A stretch of DNA of 64,000 bases from Schizophyllum amplum (taxonomy: Eukaryota > Basidiomycota > Agaricomycetes > Agaricales > Schizophyllaceae), in contig VDMD01000006.1 of the NCBI GenBank assembly GCA_007026445.1, positions 1,178,001 through 1,242,000 of the forward strand, read 5' to 3'. Shown in pieces: positions 20,623 to 64,000 of the stretch. The translations under genes and the position numbers were made by a program. Below the pieces are notes generated by a model. It was not told the origin of the DNA and did not search any database. It worked only from the letters and a program-made list of their open reading frames with translations. How positions within the stretch are numbered: position 1 is the stretch's first letter; each line of letters opens with the position of its first letter.

Positions 20623-22312
20623 CTACTCCATGTCGGGGATCTCCCCCAGCCCCGAAATCGACATTGGCCGCGTCTTGACCTCCAGCATGCGCACCATGTC
20701 CGCGAGGTCGTCGGCGGGAGCCGGCGCGGTGTCAGCGGCGTTGGAAGCGAAGGCGGGTTCGTCGGCCGCTGCTGCGGGCTCGGCAGCGTGCGTGGGCTCA
20801 TCGACGGCGTGGGCGAGCTCGGCAGCGTGGGTGGGCTCGGCGACGGCAGAAACGGACTCGGTGGCAGGCTCGGTGACGGCGGAGGCAGCCTCAACCTCAG
20901 CGGCTTCTGCGGGTGCTGCTGCACCAGTGGTCAGAGTTGCCTCCACGATTGCGACATCGTCGTCTGCGGCAGCCGCCGGTTCGTCCTCAACCAGAGCATC
21001 CTCCTCGTCTGTGGTAGCGGCTGGCTCCTGTGCAGCGGGCGCCTCGGCTTCGATGTGCTCCTCCTCCGCGGCGACTGTTTCCTCCTCGACGGCGGCCTCA
21101 TCCGCGACATGCGTCTCTGCCGCCTCGTGCTCCTCCGTGGGGAGTTCCTCATGCGCCAATGAATCCTCTGGCTCATCGTCGTGCTCTACGGCTACCTGAG
21201 CAAGGGCACCATCCTCCTCGGCCGCATGAGGCGCCTCTTCTGTGTGCTCAACCGTCTCCTCAGGTATCAACTCCTCCTCATCCGGAATCTCCCCCGCTTC
21301 CAAGGCTGCCACCGCGGCCACGCCTGCTATTGCCGGGCCTGCGGTCGTGGCAGCAGCGGCCTTCTTCGGCGCCGCGCCGCGCATGGGTGCAGGATGTCCT
21401 CTTGCTGCCGCAGCATGTCCTCTGGTCGGGGCGGCGTGCCCACGTGTGGGTGCGGCCCTCCCTCGGGTGGCGGTTCCGCGAGACGGCGCCGCTCCCCTCG
21501 TTGGCGGAGGCGACGCAGCAGCCGCGCGGCGCAAAGACGCGGCGGTCGGCTTGCTCAGGCGATCGGCCGCTTCCGGGCTGAGCGCCGTCCGCTTCGCGGG
21601 AGCTGCCTTGGGTCCGTCCGCCCCGCGCGCGCGAGCGAGCGACGCTGCCGTCGGCGCGAAAAGTCCGCCCACAGCGGAAGGAGTCTTGGGATGCGTGCCT
21701 GCGGCGGGCGATGACTTGGCCGGAGACACTGGCGTCTTCGCGGGCGTCGTCTTCGCGGACGTAGGTGTCTTCGCACGCGTGCCAGCGGCCGGCGTCTTGC
21801 GACCGGCGGGTGTGGTAGGCGCCTTGGGCGTCAGGCTCTTGCGAGCACTGCCGGGAGTCGCAGCCGCACTCTGACCAGTATGCTGAGGGCGAAGAGTGGA
21901 AGTCTTGGGTGTAGCGGGTTTGGATGGTGTCGGCGTGCTGCGCGACCCCGTCCCTGAGGGCTTCGCGGCAGCACCCTTGGCAGGTGCAGCTTTCTTCTGT
22001 GGCGGCGATGCCGGTGTCTCTAAATCCTTCACTGAGAATGCCGGTTCTAGTTCTGGCTGTGGCGGCGCAGGATCGGATAGTGCACGGAACGATGAGGGCG
22101 GCGGAGATCGCGCATCCTGGGTGATCGACTTTGGCGGCCACTCTCTGCGCTCCTTGGCTTCTTCCTTGGCTGAGTCGCCAGTGATATGAGAGACGACGCT
22201 ACCGCTCCTGGATGGTGTCGGTGTTCCGCCGATTGACGCGCGCTTGCCCTGCTGCTCGAACCGGCCGATGAGATTCGCGACACTCGCGCGTGGACGCTCG
22301 TCAGGAAGAGGC
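20623..22312 (-). CDS. Long charge-polarised disordered protein (5' exon not resolved)
   Basis: The visible exon starts after an intron acceptor at 22313-22314 and reads RPLPDERPRASVANLIGRFE, a motif that looks conserved. The first half (to about residue 340) is basic, rich in Pro, Thr, Ala and Lys, with SP/TP sites and a short TRGHAAPTRGHAAAARGH repeat. The second half is strongly acidic (Glu/Ala/Val) and ends in SISGLGEIPDME before the stop at 20623. This basic-then-acidic layout is typical of cytoskeletal or chromatin scaffold proteins, but no domain is recognised. No in-frame ATG is found in the exon, so at least one upstream exon must lie in 22313-22722. The best candidate ends at about 22386 in HPTTTDR. 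Confidence 0.6.
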
Positions 22313-22722
22313 CTAGCAGTCACAGTTAGTTACAGCCGACCGTGCACGACGTGCAACACACACATTTTCTCCGCTGCTTACGCTGACCGGTCTGTGGTTG
22401 TCGGATGCCAGTTCGGATTCCGCGACGTCCTGCGCAACGGTGTGCGGCGTCTACGCTGCTGCGATTGCTGCACGGAAATGCACGGGACGTACGTAAATCG
22501 CGTCGGGATGGCGGTCAAGAACAAACAGAAGTTGAGCGACACGATGATGGCGAGAGCAAAGGACAACCCAAAACCCAGTTTGGCAACCGACTGATGGCCG
22601 CCACGCGTGTTGACGGAGGCGACAAGTCTGCAAGCTGCTTGGGTCCAGGTCGGGTCGTGCACAAAATACACTGTAATCAGGATACATATCGCTGACATTG
22701 CATATATAATGCAACTGAGGAG
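22313..22722 (-). other. Leader and likely first exon region of the charge-polarised gene
   Basis: It must hold the missing start of the gene at 20623-22312. A minus-strand frame ending PNWHPTTTDR near 22386 meets the acceptor in phase. I could not choose a start codon with confidence. Confidence 0.35.
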
Positions 22723-53106: not shown

Positions 53107-56100
53107 TTACAGTCCAATCCAGCTGCTCCTCCCACCCGGGTTATGCAGGTTCGTCTGCCCGATCTTGATCACCGTCAAGGGCTCCCCCCGTGCACGATGG
53201 ACCCCATGGCCAGAGTCGCGCGCCATCGACGGCTCGCGCACAGGGGTCGCGGGCATCGCCGTATCGCTAGGCGAGCCGAACGGCATGTCCACGGCGTCGA
53301 TCAGCGGGCTCGACGGCATCGACAGGTCCTGGAGGGACGGTGTTGCTGAAAGCAGCCCCAGGCTGGACGAGCGAGGCTTCTCCCACCCGGGCGCGGCGAT
53401 CGCTTGCACGGCGAGGAAGGCTTCCGCGTGCCACTCGTACCACACTTGCCGAGTGTTCGTGAGCCGCCAGATCGTGACGTGCAGCTCGGAGTTGCTGGGG
53501 AGGTAGAGAGGCTCCTGGAAGCAGATGAGCGATGAAGACATACAAAGGCAAGGCACCACAGCAGTCCCTTGGACGGGCTGGAGGCACAGGTTCAGCCCCG
53601 CGCCCCGCTCCGCTATTCAGTGTGCAAAGAAGGGTTCCAATAGCTCACCCTAAACGGGAAGAAAAGCGGGAACCAGCTCAGCATGTCCTTGGAAACATGA
53701 TCCTTGCGCTCCGGATGTATGCTCAGGCCGATGGTGCCATACAGCACGGCCTCAAAGTACCCGGCCAAGCCACTGAGAAAATGCACGTCAGCGGGGCCCG
53801 TGGAAGCGACACTGCCTTCTAGTAGAGGAAGCACTGCGAGGGCACTCTCGGCTTCGCATGTGACTGGCTTCTGCGCGCAGCAAAACATCACTCACTGCAT
53901 GACCCCCGCGTGCGGTATGTGGAACTTGAGGCGTGCGCTCCGCACATTGTGGCTATTACTGAACGGCAGACCTGTCGCGCGTGGTCAGCACGACGCACCA
54001 GAAGACACCAACGATCGCCACTTACCTCTCTCGTCTAGTAGCGCGTCTTTCCGCGGGTGCTCAAAGCTCCAGCACTCTTGGATGCGGGGCCCGCACGCGC
54101 CGCTGACGCCTGGGCCGTCTCCGCTCAGGATGTTTACCGCCTGTAGCATGACTACGTATGGTGTTTCCAGCCCTACCATGTCCCGTGTCAGTCAGTCTGG
54201 ACGACGGCATAGCGAAGAGCACTACGCACCTGCAGGGCTCCCGGACGCCGTTGCCCCCGAGCGAGCCTCGTTGTACAGCTTTGCAGACGACAACGGCGCA
54301 AGATGGGCAGTATAGGAACATGGGATGGAAATACCCGTCGCTGAAAATTCCAGATGTCAAAGAGTCAGAAGAGACGAGCGTCGGTAAACATCGTAGTAGA
54401 CTCACGCTTCAAAAATCTCACCGCGCCATCGAGACACTCCGGGCTGAGCTCATTGTCCCCAAACGACCCCAACAGTTCGCTGACGAGGATGTCCGCTTGC
54501 TCGGGGACCTCGAGCGCCCGCATGTCGCCGTACACCAGCGTGACCTTGTCTCCCCAGTCCGCGGCCTTGCGGCGCTGGAGGCTGCAGCCGTTTGTATCAG
54601 TAAGGGTGAGTGGCGAAGAAAAACGGATAGACGTACGTCACGTAGGCGTTGGGGTTCTTCTCTACAGCGTAGATTTTGGCGTCCTTCTTCGCACGTTGGA
54701 GGGCGTTGAGTGCGCGGGCAACAAGGGGGCCGCGACCGGCGCCGGCGACGCAAATTATACTTGGAGTGCATGAGCTTAGTTTAGAGTCCTAGAAATGCGA
54801 GAGACCCACAGGTTCTCGACGTCCTGCAAATCAGACACAGCGCAGAATATCGCCTGGGAACCCGATTTAGCACGGCACCTAAATTTCGCGAAATAGTCAG
54901 TCGTACCTCCTCATACTGGTGGTACTTGACTGGATCCCGCTCGAACGTTTCGTATGTCGCGCTTTGGAGATTGTCCATGAGGGGCTGCAGCGGTGCCTGC
55001 AAATAATCCTGATAACCCTGCGCAAAATGCTCGACCGTGCCCTCTGTCTCTGTCGCGCGCACCACCGGGCTGGTGCGCTCGAGGTGGCGCACGTACTGCA
55101 CGTACGCCGCGCCGCCGCCGCGCTCGTGCACCCTGTCCGTCGTGCCGGAGAGAATAATTGTGGGTTGATGCTGCCTGGTGTTGTCAGCGAATGCGCAGGT
55201 AGTGGGGGCGGGTGATACTTGCTGTCATGCTCGCGCGGAGGAAGGACTGCGTAGTTTTAGAGAGGACAGGGTAGCCCTTGGCGTTGGCGATGAAGGTGGA
55301 GGCGGGGAGGAAGATGTGGCGGACGGGCTCGGCGGACCAACGGTTGAGGACGCCGAGGGTGGAGGGGAGCGCAAGGGCGAGATCGAGGGCTGTAGGCTGG
55401 TCAGTGAGAGAGGGAGAGGGGAGGTGGGGCGTAGACGTACCGAGCGAGAGGCGGGTGTTGTAATCACAGATCGTGCGGATCAGGTCCCACATCTCCCAGG
55501 TCGTGTTGAGCTCGCGCTCGGGCCCCGGCCGGTTGTGCGCGTGGCGTGAGTCGTCCGAGACGAGCAGGGTCGGCGTGCCCGGCATGGACATGGATGGCAT
55601 GCGCGGGCTGCGCCCGAGAACGAATGGCGACGCGGGGATGCCTTCGTCCAGCTTTGCGGGGTCATATATGGGCAGGCGGACGGCGAGGTTGACGTATGGG
55701 ACGCTCTTAAGGCATGTATTGACGATGCGGGCGTAGGACGCGACGTGCTCGCGGCTGCGTGGGGCGGGGAGGATGACGCTCTGGATGCCGAGGTAGGCTG
55801 CGTACGCGAGCTCCTGCTGCAGCGCGATCGCGGCGTCGTGGCGCACCCAGTCGTCCGCAGCGTCGAGCTCCAGCCACTCGGATGCGACGACGACGACTCC
55901 TTGTGCTTCGTCTGCGGCAAGTCAGTCAGAGGAAAGCGGGGGGAGGGGGGGAACTCACCCAAACGTGTCATCGTCACCTCGTCCAGCTGGAAAGCTGGCT
56001 GCGATCGCCAATCCTCAGCGCGCTTCTCGTCCGCTAGACGCTGCTCGCGATCGCGATCGCGGTGCTCCTCGTCCCCCAGCGAGGATATGCATGTCTCCGT

Positions 56101-56265
56101 CCATCGCTTTTTCCATTGATCGGTGGTGAGCGGGAGGCAGAGCACATCGTAGCCCTCGTCCTGGATGCGATTGGCGAGCTTGACGACCGCGGTCTCCTTG
56201 TCATCGCTGGGAGTCTTTGCGATGTCGTCTACAGAGGCGAAGGATCCAAGAAGCGCGTATGCCAT
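53107..56265 (-). CDS. Protein arginine methyltransferase 5 (PRMT5/Skb1)
   Basis: About thirteen exons encode a protein of roughly 840 residues. The N-terminal TIM-barrel-like half includes [36 protein letters not shown] and [21 protein letters not shown] carries the Phe and the YxxYE block typical of type II (symmetric) arginine methyltransferases. The AdoMet site is [14 protein letters not shown], then [12 protein letters not shown]. The double-Glu loop is [17 protein letters not shown], and [16 protein letters not shown] and [19 protein letters not shown] are in the C-terminal beta-barrel. It methylates arginine in histones and splicing proteins in cytoplasm and nucleus. A long Ser/Pro/Met-rich insert follows [11 protein letters not shown] before the last [16 protein letters not shown] strand, which is longer than in the human protein. 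The catalytic residues are complete. Confidence 0.93.
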
Positions 56266-57416
56266 GGATTGAAGACAGCGACAAGATATGGCATGGGATG
56301 GGGGGCAAAGTGTATCGACGCTGACTTGGAGCTCCCAAAGAAAACCTGCTTTATATCAGTCTCTGAGGTCTATAGAGTGATGCTTTACTGTGCTCACCAA
56401 TGATGATTGGGATCAAGTCGAGATCCTACTGCTGATTTGGTTCGTCACTAGTCACTTGTGAGGCAGAACTTCAGAAAGACGATCGTTGGGAACAAGCTCG
56501 AGAAAGTTGCGAGAAAGTGGCGCGCTGCCGCTTGTTCGGGCCGCGGAAGCGGTAAGCACGAGGTGCGAGAGGGACTTGTCGTTCTTCGTCTTTTCTTCAT
56601 CTTTTCTTCTACCTCTATCATCGCCTTCCCGCTGAAGTAAGCTCCCCTCAAATTGACTGCAAGTGCTGCTCTGCACTGCTCCCCACTCTTGACACTTATC
56701 AGCGGACGTGTCCTAGTGCAGGCAAGGTGGAGAAAAGGCTGCACGCCCACATCGAGTCGTCGACGAGCAGACTACTTACCGTCCGATATTGCGCTCAAAG
56801 GTCATTCGCATGGGAACTATATCAGGGCTGTATATTCCATCCCCACATCGATGTCATGACTACTTACACGCGGTTCTCGCTGCTCACTGGCGCTCAACAT
56901 CCAGCAGTGTTTTGCAGTCTCATCCGAAGGTCGAGACTCAGTGTCGCATCGTAGCCTCATTCAATGTCATCCTTACGTGATGAGCCAAGACGTTGCGTCG
57001 CTCGGACAGTGGGCACAAACAGCAAATGCGTCCAGTGAGCGTCCGTTATCAAGGAACTGCATGGCTCAGATAGAGACGTATCGTGTAACAGAGAGTCTGG
57101 AGAAAGGCGAATTACCCAGGACATGGAGTGGCAGGCTATACCTCCTCCGTAAGGCGCAAGATTCAGACACAAAAGCACCCATGTTCAAGTCGAACATGGA
57201 AGTTGGGATTCCGCAGCGGCCCGAACGGCCACGTGACCACGCGCCTTTGGACAATTTTCCTTTTTCGTTCTGGGCCTTGCTTCTGGTGTGCCTTGCGGCG
57301 AGCTAGCGTTTCCGGCCTTTGCCTGTTTTGCTTCTGTCCTTCATCGCAAGGACGGTTTGCTGAACCCGTCTCGGACTCCACATTCCTCTTTTTCTTGACT
57401 CTTTACGACATCAACC
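56266..57416. promoter_or_regulatory. Divergent region between PRMT5 and the large repeat protein
   Basis: This 1.15-kb gap holds both promoters. The last 150 bp before 57417 are T/C-rich. Short frames on both strands show no domain. Confidence 0.45.
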
Positions 57417-60400
57417 ATGACCGCCGTCGCAGACCCCACCGCGCTGGTGGACCCGCTCAAGACTGAGGACGCGTACGACGCGCCGAGTGTGCCCGAGGTG
57501 TTGGGCAAGATCAATGATGAGGAGGTATGTGGACAGGTGGGGTGGCCCCGGGCGCGTTCGCTGATGCACGAGCAGGTTGGTAAGCAGGTGAACGGGGACG
57601 CGAAGACGCGTGCGCCGGACATGGAGGTTTCTCTCAGCGGCGACACCCTCGTGAACGAGAGCAATGGGGTATGTGCTCTGCCTTTGTAGCCTTCTAGTTC
57701 TCTGACGCGCTTCGCGCAGCATGTTTTCGAGAAGGGTGACCTTGATGGCAAACCGGCAGACGTGGCACTTACGGAACAGGAGTCGGAGCTCGGGGAGGCC
57801 ACCGACGAGCAGGAGGTGGTTGATGAGGTGCGCGACGCGTTATCTTGGCTGAAAATTATCATCTGACGCGTCGTCAGGCCCCGGTGGAGGAGACTAAGGC
57901 AAACAACGTCGCGGCAGCTGAGCACAATTCGAGCGAGGCGGCACCGGAGCCGGCATCCGAAGACACGATCGACGATGCGCCTGCCGCTGCCGAGGAGGCC
58001 GTCGCTGACGACGTCACTTCCGTCGCCGAAGACGTCCCTCCGGTCCTGGAGGATGTACCTCAGGTCGACGAGGCATCCGAAGTCCCTGTCGTGGAGGAGC
58101 CAGCGCCCATTGCGGAGACGGAGGTTGAGCCCGTTGCAGATTCGGATGCTACTTCAATCGCAGAGCCGGAGGTTGCACCTATCGCCGAGACGGAAGCCGC
58201 TCCTATCGTTGAGGAGCAGGCTCCTGCAGTCGAGGAGGTGACTCCTGCTGTGGAAGAGGCGACCCTCGTCGCTGAGGAGACCGTCGCTGCTGAAGAGGAG
58301 ACTCCCGCTCCTGCCGCGGCTGAGCCTGAGGCCCCCGCTGCTGAAGCGGAGGCGCCCATTGTCGAAGAGACTGTCGCCCCTGCAGCAGTCGAGCCTGAGG
58401 CTACTCCTGACGTCGAGGCGCTTGTTGATGACGAAGAAGCAGCCGCAGATGAAGAAGCAGCTGTCGCCGACGAGGCGGCCGCTGTTGAGGCTGAGGCCTC
58501 GCCCGTTGAGGAACCTACCGTCGAAGAGTCGGCTGTCGAGGAACCTACTATCGAGGAGCCGACCGCTGAGGTGCCCGCCGCTGATGAATCGACCGTCGAG
58601 GAGCCGGTCGTTGAGGCGCCCGCCGCCGAGGAGCCGACAGTCGAGGAGTCGGTCGTTGAGCAGCCTACTGTTGAGGAATCGACCGTTGAAGCGGAGCCGA
58701 ACGTGGAGGCGCCTGTCGCCGCCACCGAGGAGGTGGAGATCAAGCAGGAAGAGGAAGAGGCCGAGATTCCCCAGGAGGATACCCCTGTCGAGCAGGAGGA
58801 AGCACCTGTCGAGCAGGAGGTGGCGCCGGTTGAGCAGGAGGAGACACCGGTCGAGCAGGAGGATACGCCCTTGGAGAAGGCGGAGACGCCCATCCAGCAG
58901 GAGGAGGTCCAGATCAAGCAGGAAGAGGAGGAAGCGCAGATCCCGCAGGAAGTGCCGATCAAACAGGAGGAGGAAGAGGTCAGCCTGGGCGACTTTACGC
59001 CGTCTGCTGCCGAAGTCGAACTGGAGGAGGCCGAGCCCGTTCAGGAGGAGGTCAAGCCTGTCGAGGATGAGGTCGAACCTGTGAAGGAGGAGCCCACCGT
59101 TACCATTGACGCCGTCGATGAGCCAATCATCGCCAGTGAGGAGCCAACCTCCGCTGTCGAGGAGGCGGCTGCGCCTGTCGTCGAGGAAGAATCGACTCCC
59201 GTCGTCAAGGAAGAGCCGATTGCTGCCGCTGATGAGGCTTCAGTCCCTGTCGTTGAATCTGTTGCGGCTGCAGTTGAGGAGGAGCCAACGCCTGTGGTCG
59301 AAGAAGAGCCGACGCCCGAGGTTCACGAACCGGCACCCGCAGTCGATGTGGTGGACGATGACGAACCCGCCGTCGTTCCCGCAGACTTATCCGAGGCCGT
59401 GACTGTTGCCGAGGATGTCAGCGCCGAGGCATCGGCCACGCCAGAGGTCCCTGAGGCTACCGAGTCCTCCGTGGAGACGGCTGAGGAGGCCGTGTCTGTC
59501 GAAGCCACCCCTGACGTCGTCGACGCTACCGAGACGAGCCTCACTGACGAGGAGGCGGGAGCCAAGGACGCTGTTGTCGAACATATCGAAGTGGTCGGTG
59601 GGGAGGCCCTCGTTGATCCGGAAGAGGCTGTCAAGGTCGACACTGCTGCGCCTGAAGAGGAGACGCCAGAGGCCAAGCCTGTCGAAGACGCCGAGGACGT
59701 GCCGACAGACATTACGCTCAGCGTCGAAGCGCCTACACCGGCGGAGGTGGAAGACGCGGAAGTGGAGGCTGACGGGGACGTCGTGCACGCCATCGAGGCG
59801 GCCGTCTTTGTGTCCGCTGCGCCCGAGGCGGCTGCGGAAGCCGAGGAGGTCGATGCAGCAGACGTCGACGTCGAGGCTTTGACCCCGGAACCTGACGAGG
59901 TCGTGCCGGACATCGTGGTGGCCTCAATTGCCGCGGACGAACCTGCCATTGCTACCGAAGCCATCGACACTGCCCCAGTAGCCGAGGAAGCTGAGGCTGT
60001 CGCCGAAGCAATTGGGCCCGCTGCTGAGGCTGCTGAGGCCGAGCTTGCTGATGCTGGAGAGGCGGAAGCGCTGGCTGCTGCTGAGCCCGTTCTCTCGCCG
60101 GAGCCCGATGAGGTCGTCCCTGACGTTGTGGCTACCACTTCAGCTTCGGCGGAAGAGCCTACTGTCGTCACGGAGATCATTGACACTGCGCCTGTCGCCG
60201 ACGATGCTGTCGCCGCCGCTGAAGAGATCGTCCCCGAAGTCGAGTCTTCTATCATTCCAGCCGACGCTACGGAAGAAGCCCCCGTCTCCGTCGTCGAACC
60301 TGAGGGTGAGCAACCTGCGGAGGAGGCTTCTGTTGAGGAGGCTGCAGCCGTAGCGGACGATGCTGCGCTCGCGCCCTCGCACCCGGAAATCGAGCGTCCG

Positions 60401-62888
60401 TGGACTCCGTCATACAGTGTCACGCAGCAGGGACCGGGTATTCCAGAGGAGGAGGAGCCTGAGCTGCCTTCTCCGATCGCTGCGCCGGAGCCTGTCAGAG
60501 CAGTCGAAGCACCTACAGAGGTCCGTTCGTTTCTCGATAGTCATGGTATAGTTACTGACAGGCTTTGGTAGCTCGAGGTGGTCGAGCCGGCACCGCGTCC
60601 GTGGACGCCATCCTACTCAGTGACCGTACAGGGAAGCACGTCGCCTCACCCGGAGGAGCCCACCGAAGACGCCGCAGCGGCAGAGGAAGTCGAGGCCTTA
60701 CCTGTCGAAGAGCCGACGGAGGTCAGCGAAGAGGTCCCTGTGCCTGTTGCTGCACCGGTCGCCGAAACTGACAACGCCACTCCTGATATCGTTCTTGAGG
60801 AAGTAGAATCCGCTGAGGTTCGTGTTTTGCTCGCATTCATAGCCTTCCTGACTGACTGTCATTCACAGAAGGCCGAGGAATTAGCCGCGGAGTCCGCTGC
60901 TGGCGGTCTTGAACGACCCAAGTCGCCCTACCCACAGTCCTACTCGGTCAGCGTTCAGGGCAGCCCCTCGCCGAGCGCAGCCGAGCTGCCCTCCGAGGAG
61001 GCTCCCGTGGCCGCTGAGATCGAAGATCAGCAGGAGGAACAGCCCGTTGTTCACCAAGCGGAGGATGTAAGTGCGCGTATGTGTTAGATTGGCATCCCCT
61101 AATCGTCTTCCATAGGCGGATTCGGTTGTCGAGTCCTCGGTCGAGCCCGAGGCTGAAGCAGAGGTGCAGCCTGCGGCAGTGGAAACTCCGGTCGTCGTCG
61201 AGGTAAGCGGTCATTCCCGCACTCGCTCTACACCAGGTGTTTGACGATGCATAACAGCCCGACGTTGAGGACGTCGCCCCCATCATCGAGACCTCTTCCG
61301 CTGCGCTGCCCGAGCAAGTCGAACGGCCGAAGTCGCCTTTCCCACCAGCGTACTCTGTAACGACCCAAGGACCGAACGAAGAGGAGGCCGAGCAGCCCTC
61401 GTCTGAACCGGAGGTCGCCGAGCAGCGCTCGCCTACACCTGCTATCGTGTTGCCCGAAGAGGCCGCTGAAGATCACCATGTGGAGCGCCCGAAGTCGCCT
61501 TTCCCTCAGTCGTACTCAGTGACCTCTCAAGGTCCTGATGACGAGCCTGAGCAGGAAATCGCTGCGCCAGACGCGTCCGACGAGCCCGCCGCTGGCCCCG
61601 TTTTCGAGGAGCAGCCCCAGCCTGCTGCCGAGCGCCCCGTGTCACCGTACCCGCGGTCGTACTCTGTTCTATCGCAAGGCCCAGGGGAGGAGACCAAGGA
61701 CGTCGCAGAGGAACAGGAGCCTGCGGTCGAGACGGAGCTCGAACCCTCGGTGTCCGAAATCAAGCCCGCTGAGACGGAGGCTCGTCCCAAATCGCCGTTC
61801 CCGTCGGCCTACTCCGTCATGTCACAAGGACCCGGGATGGAGCCTGAGCAAGCAGCGGAGTCGGAGTCTACTGAGGCTGAGGAGGCCGCCGCCGCTGAAG
61901 TACCCATTCAGAGGGCGGCAACGCCGTTGATTGTCACTCCGCAAGCTGAGGTCGAGGATCCCGTCGATCGTCCCAAATCTCCCTTCCCGCAATCGTACTC
62001 GGTTTCTCGCCAAGGTAGCCCGAAGCCCATCGCACAGCAGCTGGAAGACATGGTCCAGGAGCAGGCTGAGCGGCCCAAGTCGCCATATCCTCAGTCGTAC
62101 TCGGTTTCCAGGCAGGGTAGCCCTCGACCTCCTGAAATCGAGGCGGGCGAGCCGCCTGTGGAGCGTCCCAAGTCTCCATATCCCCAGTCGTACTCGGTGT
62201 CGAGGCAGGGCAGCCCGATGCCTCCAGAGGCTGAGCCAGCGGTAGCGCAGGCTCCGGAAAGCAAGTTGACGGAGGTGAGATCATCGCGTTCTTCAATCCT
62301 TCGTTTCTGAACAACTTGTTTTCAGGTTGTTGCCCCTAGCGGAGATGCAACTATCGCTGCACCTGCTGAGGCTGTTGACCGTCCGAAGTCTCCTTACCCT
62401 CGCGCGTACTCCGTGTCGACACAAGGGCCCGGTACTCCCAACACCGAAAAGGAGATCGACGAGCAGCCTTCAGAGTTAGTCTCTCCCGTGGAATGGTATG
62501 TGTTCGCTCTTCCCGCGTACTGTTACAAAACTGATCAGACGTACATAGGACTGACGCGAACAAGGGAAGCTCGGGATCAGGGTCACGCAAGCGCCGCGGT
62601 TCAACTGCTTCGCGTACCTCCGCGAGCGGCTGGCTTTCGCCAACTGCGGCTCCTGAGTCCGTCCGTACCTCCCTGGAGGCGGCAAAGGGCGAGTTCGCGC
62701 GTACTACCGTCGCTTCCCCGGCCGCCTCTGCCCCCGCGACACCTGCCGACAGACATGACGAGCTATCGATCGACGAGGGCACGGAGGCGGAGGAGTCTGC
62801 GGCGGACGATTCGGAGGACGATTCGGACTCGGAGTCGGAGACGGACGACGAGGCACCGCGGCGCCGTCGGTGGTGCACGATTATGTGA
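57417..62888 (+). CDS. Very large acidic repeat protein ending in a CaaX box
   Basis: About ten exons give roughly 1,650 residues. The start is MTAVADPTALVDPLKTEDAY, followed by DAPSVPEVLGKINDEE, the only part that looks globular. Exon 4 (about 57878-60520) is a long Glu/Ala/Val/Pro tract with many VEEPTVEE-type units (58500-58740) and EQEE.PVEQEE units (58780-58900). The following exons hold eleven copies of RPKSPYPQSYSVSRQGSP and variants (60392-62433). The last exon is Ser-rich and acidic, then RRRRWCTIM and stop. CTIM fits the CaaX prenylation rule (Cys, two aliphatic-like, Met favours farnesylation), with a basic patch that would bind acidic lipids. So the protein is probably a disordered scaffold anchored to a membrane. 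I recognise no named family. Confidence 0.8.
60392..62433 (+). repeat. Eleven-copy RPKSP-SYSV-QG protein motif array
   Basis: The copies begin with ERPWTPSYSVTQQGPG and PRPWTPSYSVTVQGST, two shorter early forms. Nine 19-residue forms follow, such as ERPKSPFPQSYSVTSQGPD and DRPKSPFPQSYSVSRQGSP. Spacing is uneven, from about 36 to 90 residues, with acidic linkers. SP/TP sites occur in every copy, suggesting proline-directed kinase sites. Introns separate some of the copies. Confidence 0.85.
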
Positions 62889-63534: not shown

Positions 63535-64000
63535 CTACATGTGGACTCCGACCTGAGGAGCAGAAGTTACTTCCACCAAATTGCCATGAGCCAAAGACAG
63601 GCCTGCCACCGTATCCTCATCTGTGAATGTCCTACCGGAGATCGTGAACAGCAGTTCCCGCGCAGGCCGCCCGACTGACTGTGCCACGGCTTCCCTGAAC
63701 CTGCGCATCGTCTGCGTCGAACGCAGGCGGAACGATACGGTAAGCTGGCGCGGTGCCTCGTGTCGCACACACACTCGGACGTGGATGCTGGCACGATCTA
63801 GTAGTAAGAATGAACAGCCTTATAGCACACACAGATGAACGACATGGAGGGGATTACATACCATGAGGTGCCGTGCTATCTTGCGTAGCGACTGTGCCGA
63901 ACGCGGGCACGTTCGAGAGGGAGCCGGAGGCAGCCGCAGACGGCGAAGATGATACACTTGAAGCAAATCTGCCTGCGTTGGTGGATGGCCTACCGTCTCG
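63535..64000 (-). CDS. Ubiquitin/SUMO-like domain protein, C-terminal part (cut by window edge)
   Basis: The last exon gives RASIHVRVCVRHEAPRQLTV, then SFRLRSTQTMRRFREAVAQS and LLFTISGRTFTDEDTVAGLS, ending LVEVTSAPQVGVHM. Strand-helix-strand order, the DG/SGRTF..EDT turn and the final hydrophobic strand match the SUMO-like (Rad60-SLD) beta-grasp fold. No di-Gly end is present, so it is a domain, not a free modifier. The upstream exon in the window (from 64000 to about 63863) is Ser/Ala-rich, and the rest of the gene lies outside. A Rad60/Esc2-type genome stability protein is one possibility. Confidence 0.65.

Follow-up and report, generated by a model that had tools for sequence, protein, structure and literature searches.

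The 64,000-nucleotide window analysed here (Schizophyllum amplum contig VDMD01000006.1, positions 1,178,001 to 1,242,000) contains a gene, at window positions 57417-62888 (+), whose predicted product carries an array of eleven short motifs and ends in a CaaX box, and we found motif array and CaaX end together on one polypeptide both in this protein and in three of its 17 relatives. This is a real gene of a recurrent family, apparently an undescribed one, with a design that is uncommon but has parallels. We think it probable, with some reserve, that the family belongs to the Agaricomycetes and consists of prenylated, membrane-tethered, disordered multivalent scaffolds. The direct basis for this view is a consistent gene model, the motif array, the segregation of charged and aromatic residues, selection on the motif, and the co-occurrence of motif and CaaX box, which makes the idea of a membrane scaffold directly testable.

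The predicted protein has a mass of 174 kDa, a pI of 4.05 and a net charge of -371. One regular expression, RP[KVW][ST]P..YSVxxQG, finds eleven motifs in it, which agrees with an earlier count of eleven RPKSP-SYSV-QG motifs made from the DNA alone (hereafter the original prediction); RPKSP itself opens eight copies, RPVSP one and RPWTP two. YSV and QG each occur eleven times in the whole protein, always inside the motifs, as do 16 of the 17 tyrosines. Introns included, the array spans 60395-62433 (residues 943-1536, mapped by hand onto the exons; all features of the gene are on the + strand). Among the nine long-form copies, the ratio of nonsynonymous to synonymous differences (pN/pS) is 0.275, compared to 0.852 in a set of 2000 linker-window pairs chosen arbitrarily, and two copies that are identical in protein differ at 7 nucleotides. 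These silent differences and the low ratio indicate that the motif peptide has been kept while its DNA drifted.

Using exon 8 (61258-62274), which encodes motifs 4-10, as the query in a protein search, we scored 7995 candidates and found at least 17 relatives with E-values no higher than 1, of which six reach 0.001 or better. The relatives carry between 2 and 9 motifs each. Three of the 17 could be assigned to organisms, all of them Agaricales: Flagelloscypha sp. (P0001), Mucidula mucida and Lentinula detonsa. P0001 has 501 residues and 9 motifs, begins with Met, and may be complete. CaaX ends are present in P0001 (CVIM; search E-value 7.7e-13), P0006 (CTIM; 7.5e-4) and P0011 (CVVM; 0.016). 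The original prediction had named homologues that never end in Cys-a-a-X as a test; because motif and CaaX end co-occur in three of 17 relatives, the finding is favoured.

The last exon, exon 10 (62549-62888), encodes a basic Ser-rich patch, the element SLEAAKGEF (62670-62696, residues 1598-1606), an acidic stretch and the polybasic CaaX end. The element, in the form SLxxAxGEF, is shared with P0006 and P0011, and both of these relatives end in CaaX; among the 17 relatives examined, it is found in neither P0001 nor the other 14. Aligned with exon 10, the tails of P0006 and P0011 have single-comparison E-values of 1e-9 and 6e-7, and after removal of the last six residues the scores against exon 10 were reached by 0 of 1000 shuffles (P0006) and 2 of 1000 (P0011). 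The earlier claim that the CaaX end belongs to the repeat protein is supported by three of 17 relatives, including both that have the element. On this small sample, the family core appears to be the motif array plus the CaaX end.

Other queries were less productive. Residues 1000-1669 gave nothing at E up to 0.001 (7986 scored candidates) and exon 10 alone gave nothing at E up to 1 (105 candidates), in searches whose limits on subject length (0.55-1.75x the query) would shut out P0001, P0006 and P0011. No relative was confirmed among 6 pattern matches in viral contigs or 26 in contigs of prokaryote genomes, and a 273-residue C-terminal query found no second gene with the motif in the gene's own genome.

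Motifs are basic and aromatic, and linkers strongly acidic, both in this protein and in its relatives. With the motifs narrowly delimited (170 residues) they contain no D/E and 24 K/R, and the 422 residues between them contain 119 D/E and 9 K/R; as 16-residue windows (176 residues) the motifs contain 2 D/E and 24 K/R. In the 17 relatives, motif windows sum to a net charge of +68 over 1134 residues and linkers to -439 over 2621. Aromatic residues are similarly concentrated: 22 of 31 lie inside the eleven 9-residue motif cores where 1.8 are expected (binomial p about 1e-20), and 165 of 285 when the relatives are added (27.8 expected), an enrichment that is partly built in because the cores are defined by aromatic letters. 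Ahead of most of the array lies an acidic tract rich in Glu, Ala, Val and Pro (residues 111-980, 870 residues, net -255), encoded by exon 4 (57878-60520) along with motif 1. Ser/Thr-Pro sites number 47 in the whole protein, including 11 in the eleven narrowly delimited motifs, and the sequences KRRGS in exon 10 and GRRES in P0006 fit the PKA-type RRxS pattern.

Composition and structure prediction support a disordered state for the long chain. The charge-hydropathy index is negative in all seven segments (the weakest value is -0.030, for residues 701-980), and AlphaFold2 predicted no fold for exon 10 (mean confidence 57.6, 4-sequence alignment) or for exon 8 (mean predicted local distance difference test score 50.3, 18 sequences), apart from one 13-residue helix in the latter. 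A Pfam scan of the whole 1669-residue protein gave no family at E up to 0.1, no family exceeded its cut-off in the 17 relatives, and neither the repeat exon nor its alignment matched a solved structure. Several matches stayed below cut-off, and we put them down to composition or chance: 17.3 bits for Extensin_1 in exon 4 (cut-off 105), a match that disappeared in the whole-protein scan; Hira in P0002 (17.9 bits against 25); and Y1_Tnp in P0016 (15.5 bits against 23). An IS200 transposase model scored 18.2 bits against 55 in P0001 (NCBIfam, built for prokaryotes; five sequences scanned) and was rejected. PF28308 is precomputed for P0010, yet it is absent from our Pfam scan of that protein.

The spliced model confirms the end RRRRWCTIM (62859-62885), with its CaaX box, that had been read from the sequence. 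Cys 1666, the CaaX cysteine, is the sole Cys in 1669 residues. Among 634 stop-to-stop open reading frames (ORFs) of at least 60 residues in the window, 18 have Cys at position -4, and a strict C[AVILT][AVIL][MSQAC] end occurs in only one, the exon-10 ORF of this gene. CTIM here, and CVIM, CTIM and CVVM in P0001, P0006 and P0011, have the C-a-a-X form of CaaX prenyltransferase substrates. According to an excerpt of one study (PMC1175975), such substrates have a linker of about 11 residues, flexible and hydrophilic, ahead of the Cys, tend to have a small or flexible hydrophilic residue at the position adjoining it, and, where the last residue is Met, suit geranylgeranyltransferase I as well as farnesyltransferase. 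The linker TDDEAPRRRRW is hydrophilic and lies in a stretch without a predicted fold, but its last residue is a bulky Trp. The farnesyl group that the original prediction associated with the Met end is not certain, since Met also suits the other enzyme (PMC1175975). In another basidiomycete, Cryptococcus neoformans, mutation of the CaaX box abolishes the membrane location of Ras1 and Cdc42, as stated in an excerpt of PMC4894686.

The genome has matches above cut-off to the PPTA, Prenyltrans and ICMT families, and in controls bacterial proteins also matched these prenyltransferase and ICMT families. Rab prenyltransferase and sterol cyclases belong to these families too, as do those bacterial proteins, so the matches indicate the presence of enzyme families only. 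Separately, PPTA matches with the same spacing occur on two contigs (C129:13233-13998 and C250:192109-192874), with equal scores in three of four pairs and 37.3 and 38.1 bits in the fourth; the matching spacing and scores suggest that these are redundant contigs or haplotigs.

Several observations weigh against the scaffold reading. P0011 was weak in the database search (E = 0.016), and P0001 is the only one of the three CaaX-bearing relatives that was assigned to an organism. Fourteen of the 17 relatives end without CaaX, and all were counted as misses; we suspect that these ends are ORFs cut at introns or contig ends, some of which look like intron read-through. P0001's tail shows similarity nowhere but in the CaaX box, and 658 of 1000 shuffles reach its score. 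The four-Arg patch does not hold up as a fixed feature of the family: the residues before the CaaX box are RRRRW in the window protein, KKSKW and KKGRW in relatives, and DGKG in P0001. The giant acidic tract, too, may not be general in the family: its 870 residues have no counterpart in the 501-residue P0001, if that model is complete. The Trp before the Cys departs from the tendency described in the excerpt of PMC1175975. The pattern of charge and aromatic residues follows in part from the consensus-based definition of the motif, and the AlphaFold2 alignments, with 4 and 18 sequences, are shallow.

In the mechanism that we propose, a C-terminal prenyl group, either farnesyl or geranylgeranyl, would tether the chain to the cytoplasmic face of a membrane. 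The chain would display several to eleven short basic-aromatic motifs (family consensus about RPKSPWTPSYSVxxQGSP), with acidic linkers of tens of residues acting as spacers, and the motifs could bind either a partner protein or one another and the acidic tract. Phosphorylation of Ser/Thr-Pro sites inside the motifs would remove positive charge and so might weaken or switch binding. Prenylation, membrane location, phosphorylation, and partner binding or self-association are all inferred here from sequence.

One branch of this explanation, stated alone, is that the motif is a docking peptide for a single folded partner, such as a kinase or a peptide-binding domain, on a passive membrane array without self-association, a reading that we take seriously without expecting it to prevail. 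It is favoured by the low pN/pS among motif copies (0.275) and by conservation among 73 motif instances, where the core Y is kept 72 times, the S 69 times and the V 71 times, and 71 instances have an aromatic residue at -3; this is stricter than loose aromatic stickers would need. The 73 instances come from a first regular expression that missed AYSV copies (a wider one counts 82), and only the -3 aromatic is independent of the definition, because the expression admits nothing but S at the first S and a restricted choice elsewhere in the core. Against docking, no known domain or solved structure was matched, and for a simple SH3 partner in particular, the long-form copies in the window (RPKSPYPQSY and kin) have lost the second PxxP that the family consensus has. 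The SH3-ligand reading of the motif was set aside. A likeness to the heptad of the RNA polymerase II C-terminal domain, which has a YSPTSPS-like core, was also rejected: among 20000 shuffles of each, 953 of the family consensus and 6144 of the window consensus fit the heptad no worse than the unshuffled consensus does.

In a bolder version, the mushroom lineage has a class of prenylated, charge-segregated sticker-and-spacer polymers, whose basic-aromatic motifs and acidic spacers, joined in one lipid-anchored chain, might assemble on a membrane into a two-dimensional condensate or meshwork that phosphorylation switches; a single disordered protein would then make up a kind of submembrane scaffold. 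We offer this version tentatively and consider it rather unlikely.

Less likely again is that the protein is an entropic brush, that is, a lipid-anchored acidic polyelectrolyte brush or spacer at a membrane in which the motifs play a minor part, much as neurofilament side arms or MARCKS/BASP1-type proteins would act. The net charge of -371, the 870-residue acidic tract and the KSP-type sites all suit a brush. Against it, the motif sequence is under selection and recurs in relatives, while P0001, with its 501 residues, lacks the giant acidic tract.

Further evidence on the C-terminal end of the predicted protein comes from a degenerate partial duplicate in the same genome (contig C244, 962449-962966, minus strand; loci L005, L010, L014 and L015). 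It matches the last part of exon 9, all of intron 9, exon 10 and the first part of the 3' untranslated region (UTR), and was copied as DNA, since the intron is still present. In-frame stops interrupt the duplicate, which also has one deletion of 12 bases and two insertions, of one base and of 40 bases; tblastn found no motif within a 9.9-kb stretch around it. Over 46 positions of exon 9 its identity to the gene is 0.74; the intron (52 positions) gives 0.71, exon 10 (328) gives 0.77 and the UTR (68) gives 0.57. Exon 10 differs at 18/109, 20/109 and 37/110 of first, second and third codon positions (Fisher p = 0.0013, position 3 vs 1+2), a third-position bias that speaks for exon 10 being coding sequence in the frame of the model. 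It is very improbable that the CaaX box is a chance four-letter end on a protein that is not prenylated: chance is favoured by the Trp, a bulky residue, that precedes the Cys here and in P0006 and P0011, and by the 14 of 17 relatives without CaaX, but three relatives have strict CaaX ends, the broken duplicate still reads RRWCTIV, and no other window ORF of the 634 ends so. We give almost no credence to a mis-joined last exon, with intron 9 retained (which would leave the frame open to 63387) or spliced otherwise and the real protein end different, because the exon-10 tail resembles those of P0006 and P0011, change relative to the duplicate is biased to third positions, and the GT donor and AG acceptor of intron 9 are kept in the duplicate.

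The coordinates 57417-62888 given in the original prediction are right, running from ATG to TGA, and its last intron (62495 to about 62549) is correct within one base, intron 9 being 62496-62548. The model joins 10 exons into one uninterrupted frame of 1669 codons. Its nine GT-AG introns, of 49-55 bp, were picked by eye from the sequence and verified by script; introns 1-8 lie between codons and intron 9 alone splits a codon. In addition to those already located, the exons are 57417-57524 (exon 1), 57576-57668 (exon 2), 57720-57827 (exon 3), 60572-60817 (exon 5, motif 2), 60869-61066 (exon 6, motif 3), 61116-61202 (exon 7) and 62326-62495 (exon 9, motif 11).

A divergently oriented PRMT5 ORF adjoins the gene (55184-56355, minus strand; TIM-barrel domain with 169.1 bits on 55184-55921) and is a possible synteny marker for orthologues; the frame 55480-56355 (minus) has no Pfam family. 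Also on the minus strand are a ubiquitin-like ORF at 63535-63819, with a score of 22.0 bits that is below the cut-off of 25.4, and a second long low-complexity ORF at 20623-22329, which is rich in Ala, Glu, Pro, Ser and Thr (568 residues) and has no Pfam family.

Literature searches, from which most subscription papers were excluded, gave no match to WTPSYSV, a result that does not show absence from print. Judged by titles and the starts of abstracts, none of the matches to PSYSV concerns fungi, and no such natural protein was among the matches listed for Agaricomycetes, disordered, farnesyl and CaaX. Most CaaX proteins are small GTPases, G-gamma subunits or pheromones, besides a few others with folded domains. 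If true, a CaaX protein of mushroom-forming fungi that recurs, is disordered throughout and has many motifs would be an unannotated prenylation target, and could provide a natural system for studying how membrane-tethered multivalent chains are switched. With one Cys and one repeated motif, the design is easily testable.

Known systems resemble the predicted protein in part. The side arms of neurofilament M/H are acidic, Glu-rich disordered chains with repeated KSP sites; unlike them, the window protein has no intermediate-filament rod, has a different motif and, in place of filament assembly, would have a lipid at its end. MARCKS and BASP1 are lipidated, unfolded and acidic, rich in Ala, Glu and Pro and furnished with basic patches, but they have no repeated aromatic motif and their lipid is an N-terminal myristoyl group. 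We rejected membership in the paralemmin family (PALM1 and kin), of which Pfam holds a model: the domain was not found (0 families at E up to 0.1), nor was a three-Cys cluster. Compared by description and by the Pfam scan, Paralemmin-1 is nonetheless the nearest functional parallel; it combines a paralemmin motif with three clustered lipidated Cys (PMC11887803), whereas the window protein has one Cys and an eleven-copy motif array. Ras and Rho GTPases have disordered, polybasic, prenylated C-terminal ends (PMC10622456), but there the tail is short and attached to a GTPase, whereas here the whole long chain is predicted to be disordered and there is no GTPase domain. Engineered farnesylated proteins combine a disordered chain with a farnesyl group (PMC9115796), though they are man-made, for materials, and not a natural motif array. 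Finally, the layout of spaced interaction motifs and linkers is that of stickers-and-spacers associative polymers (PMC6822780); for the window protein self-association is only proposed, and a predicted membrane tether would be added.

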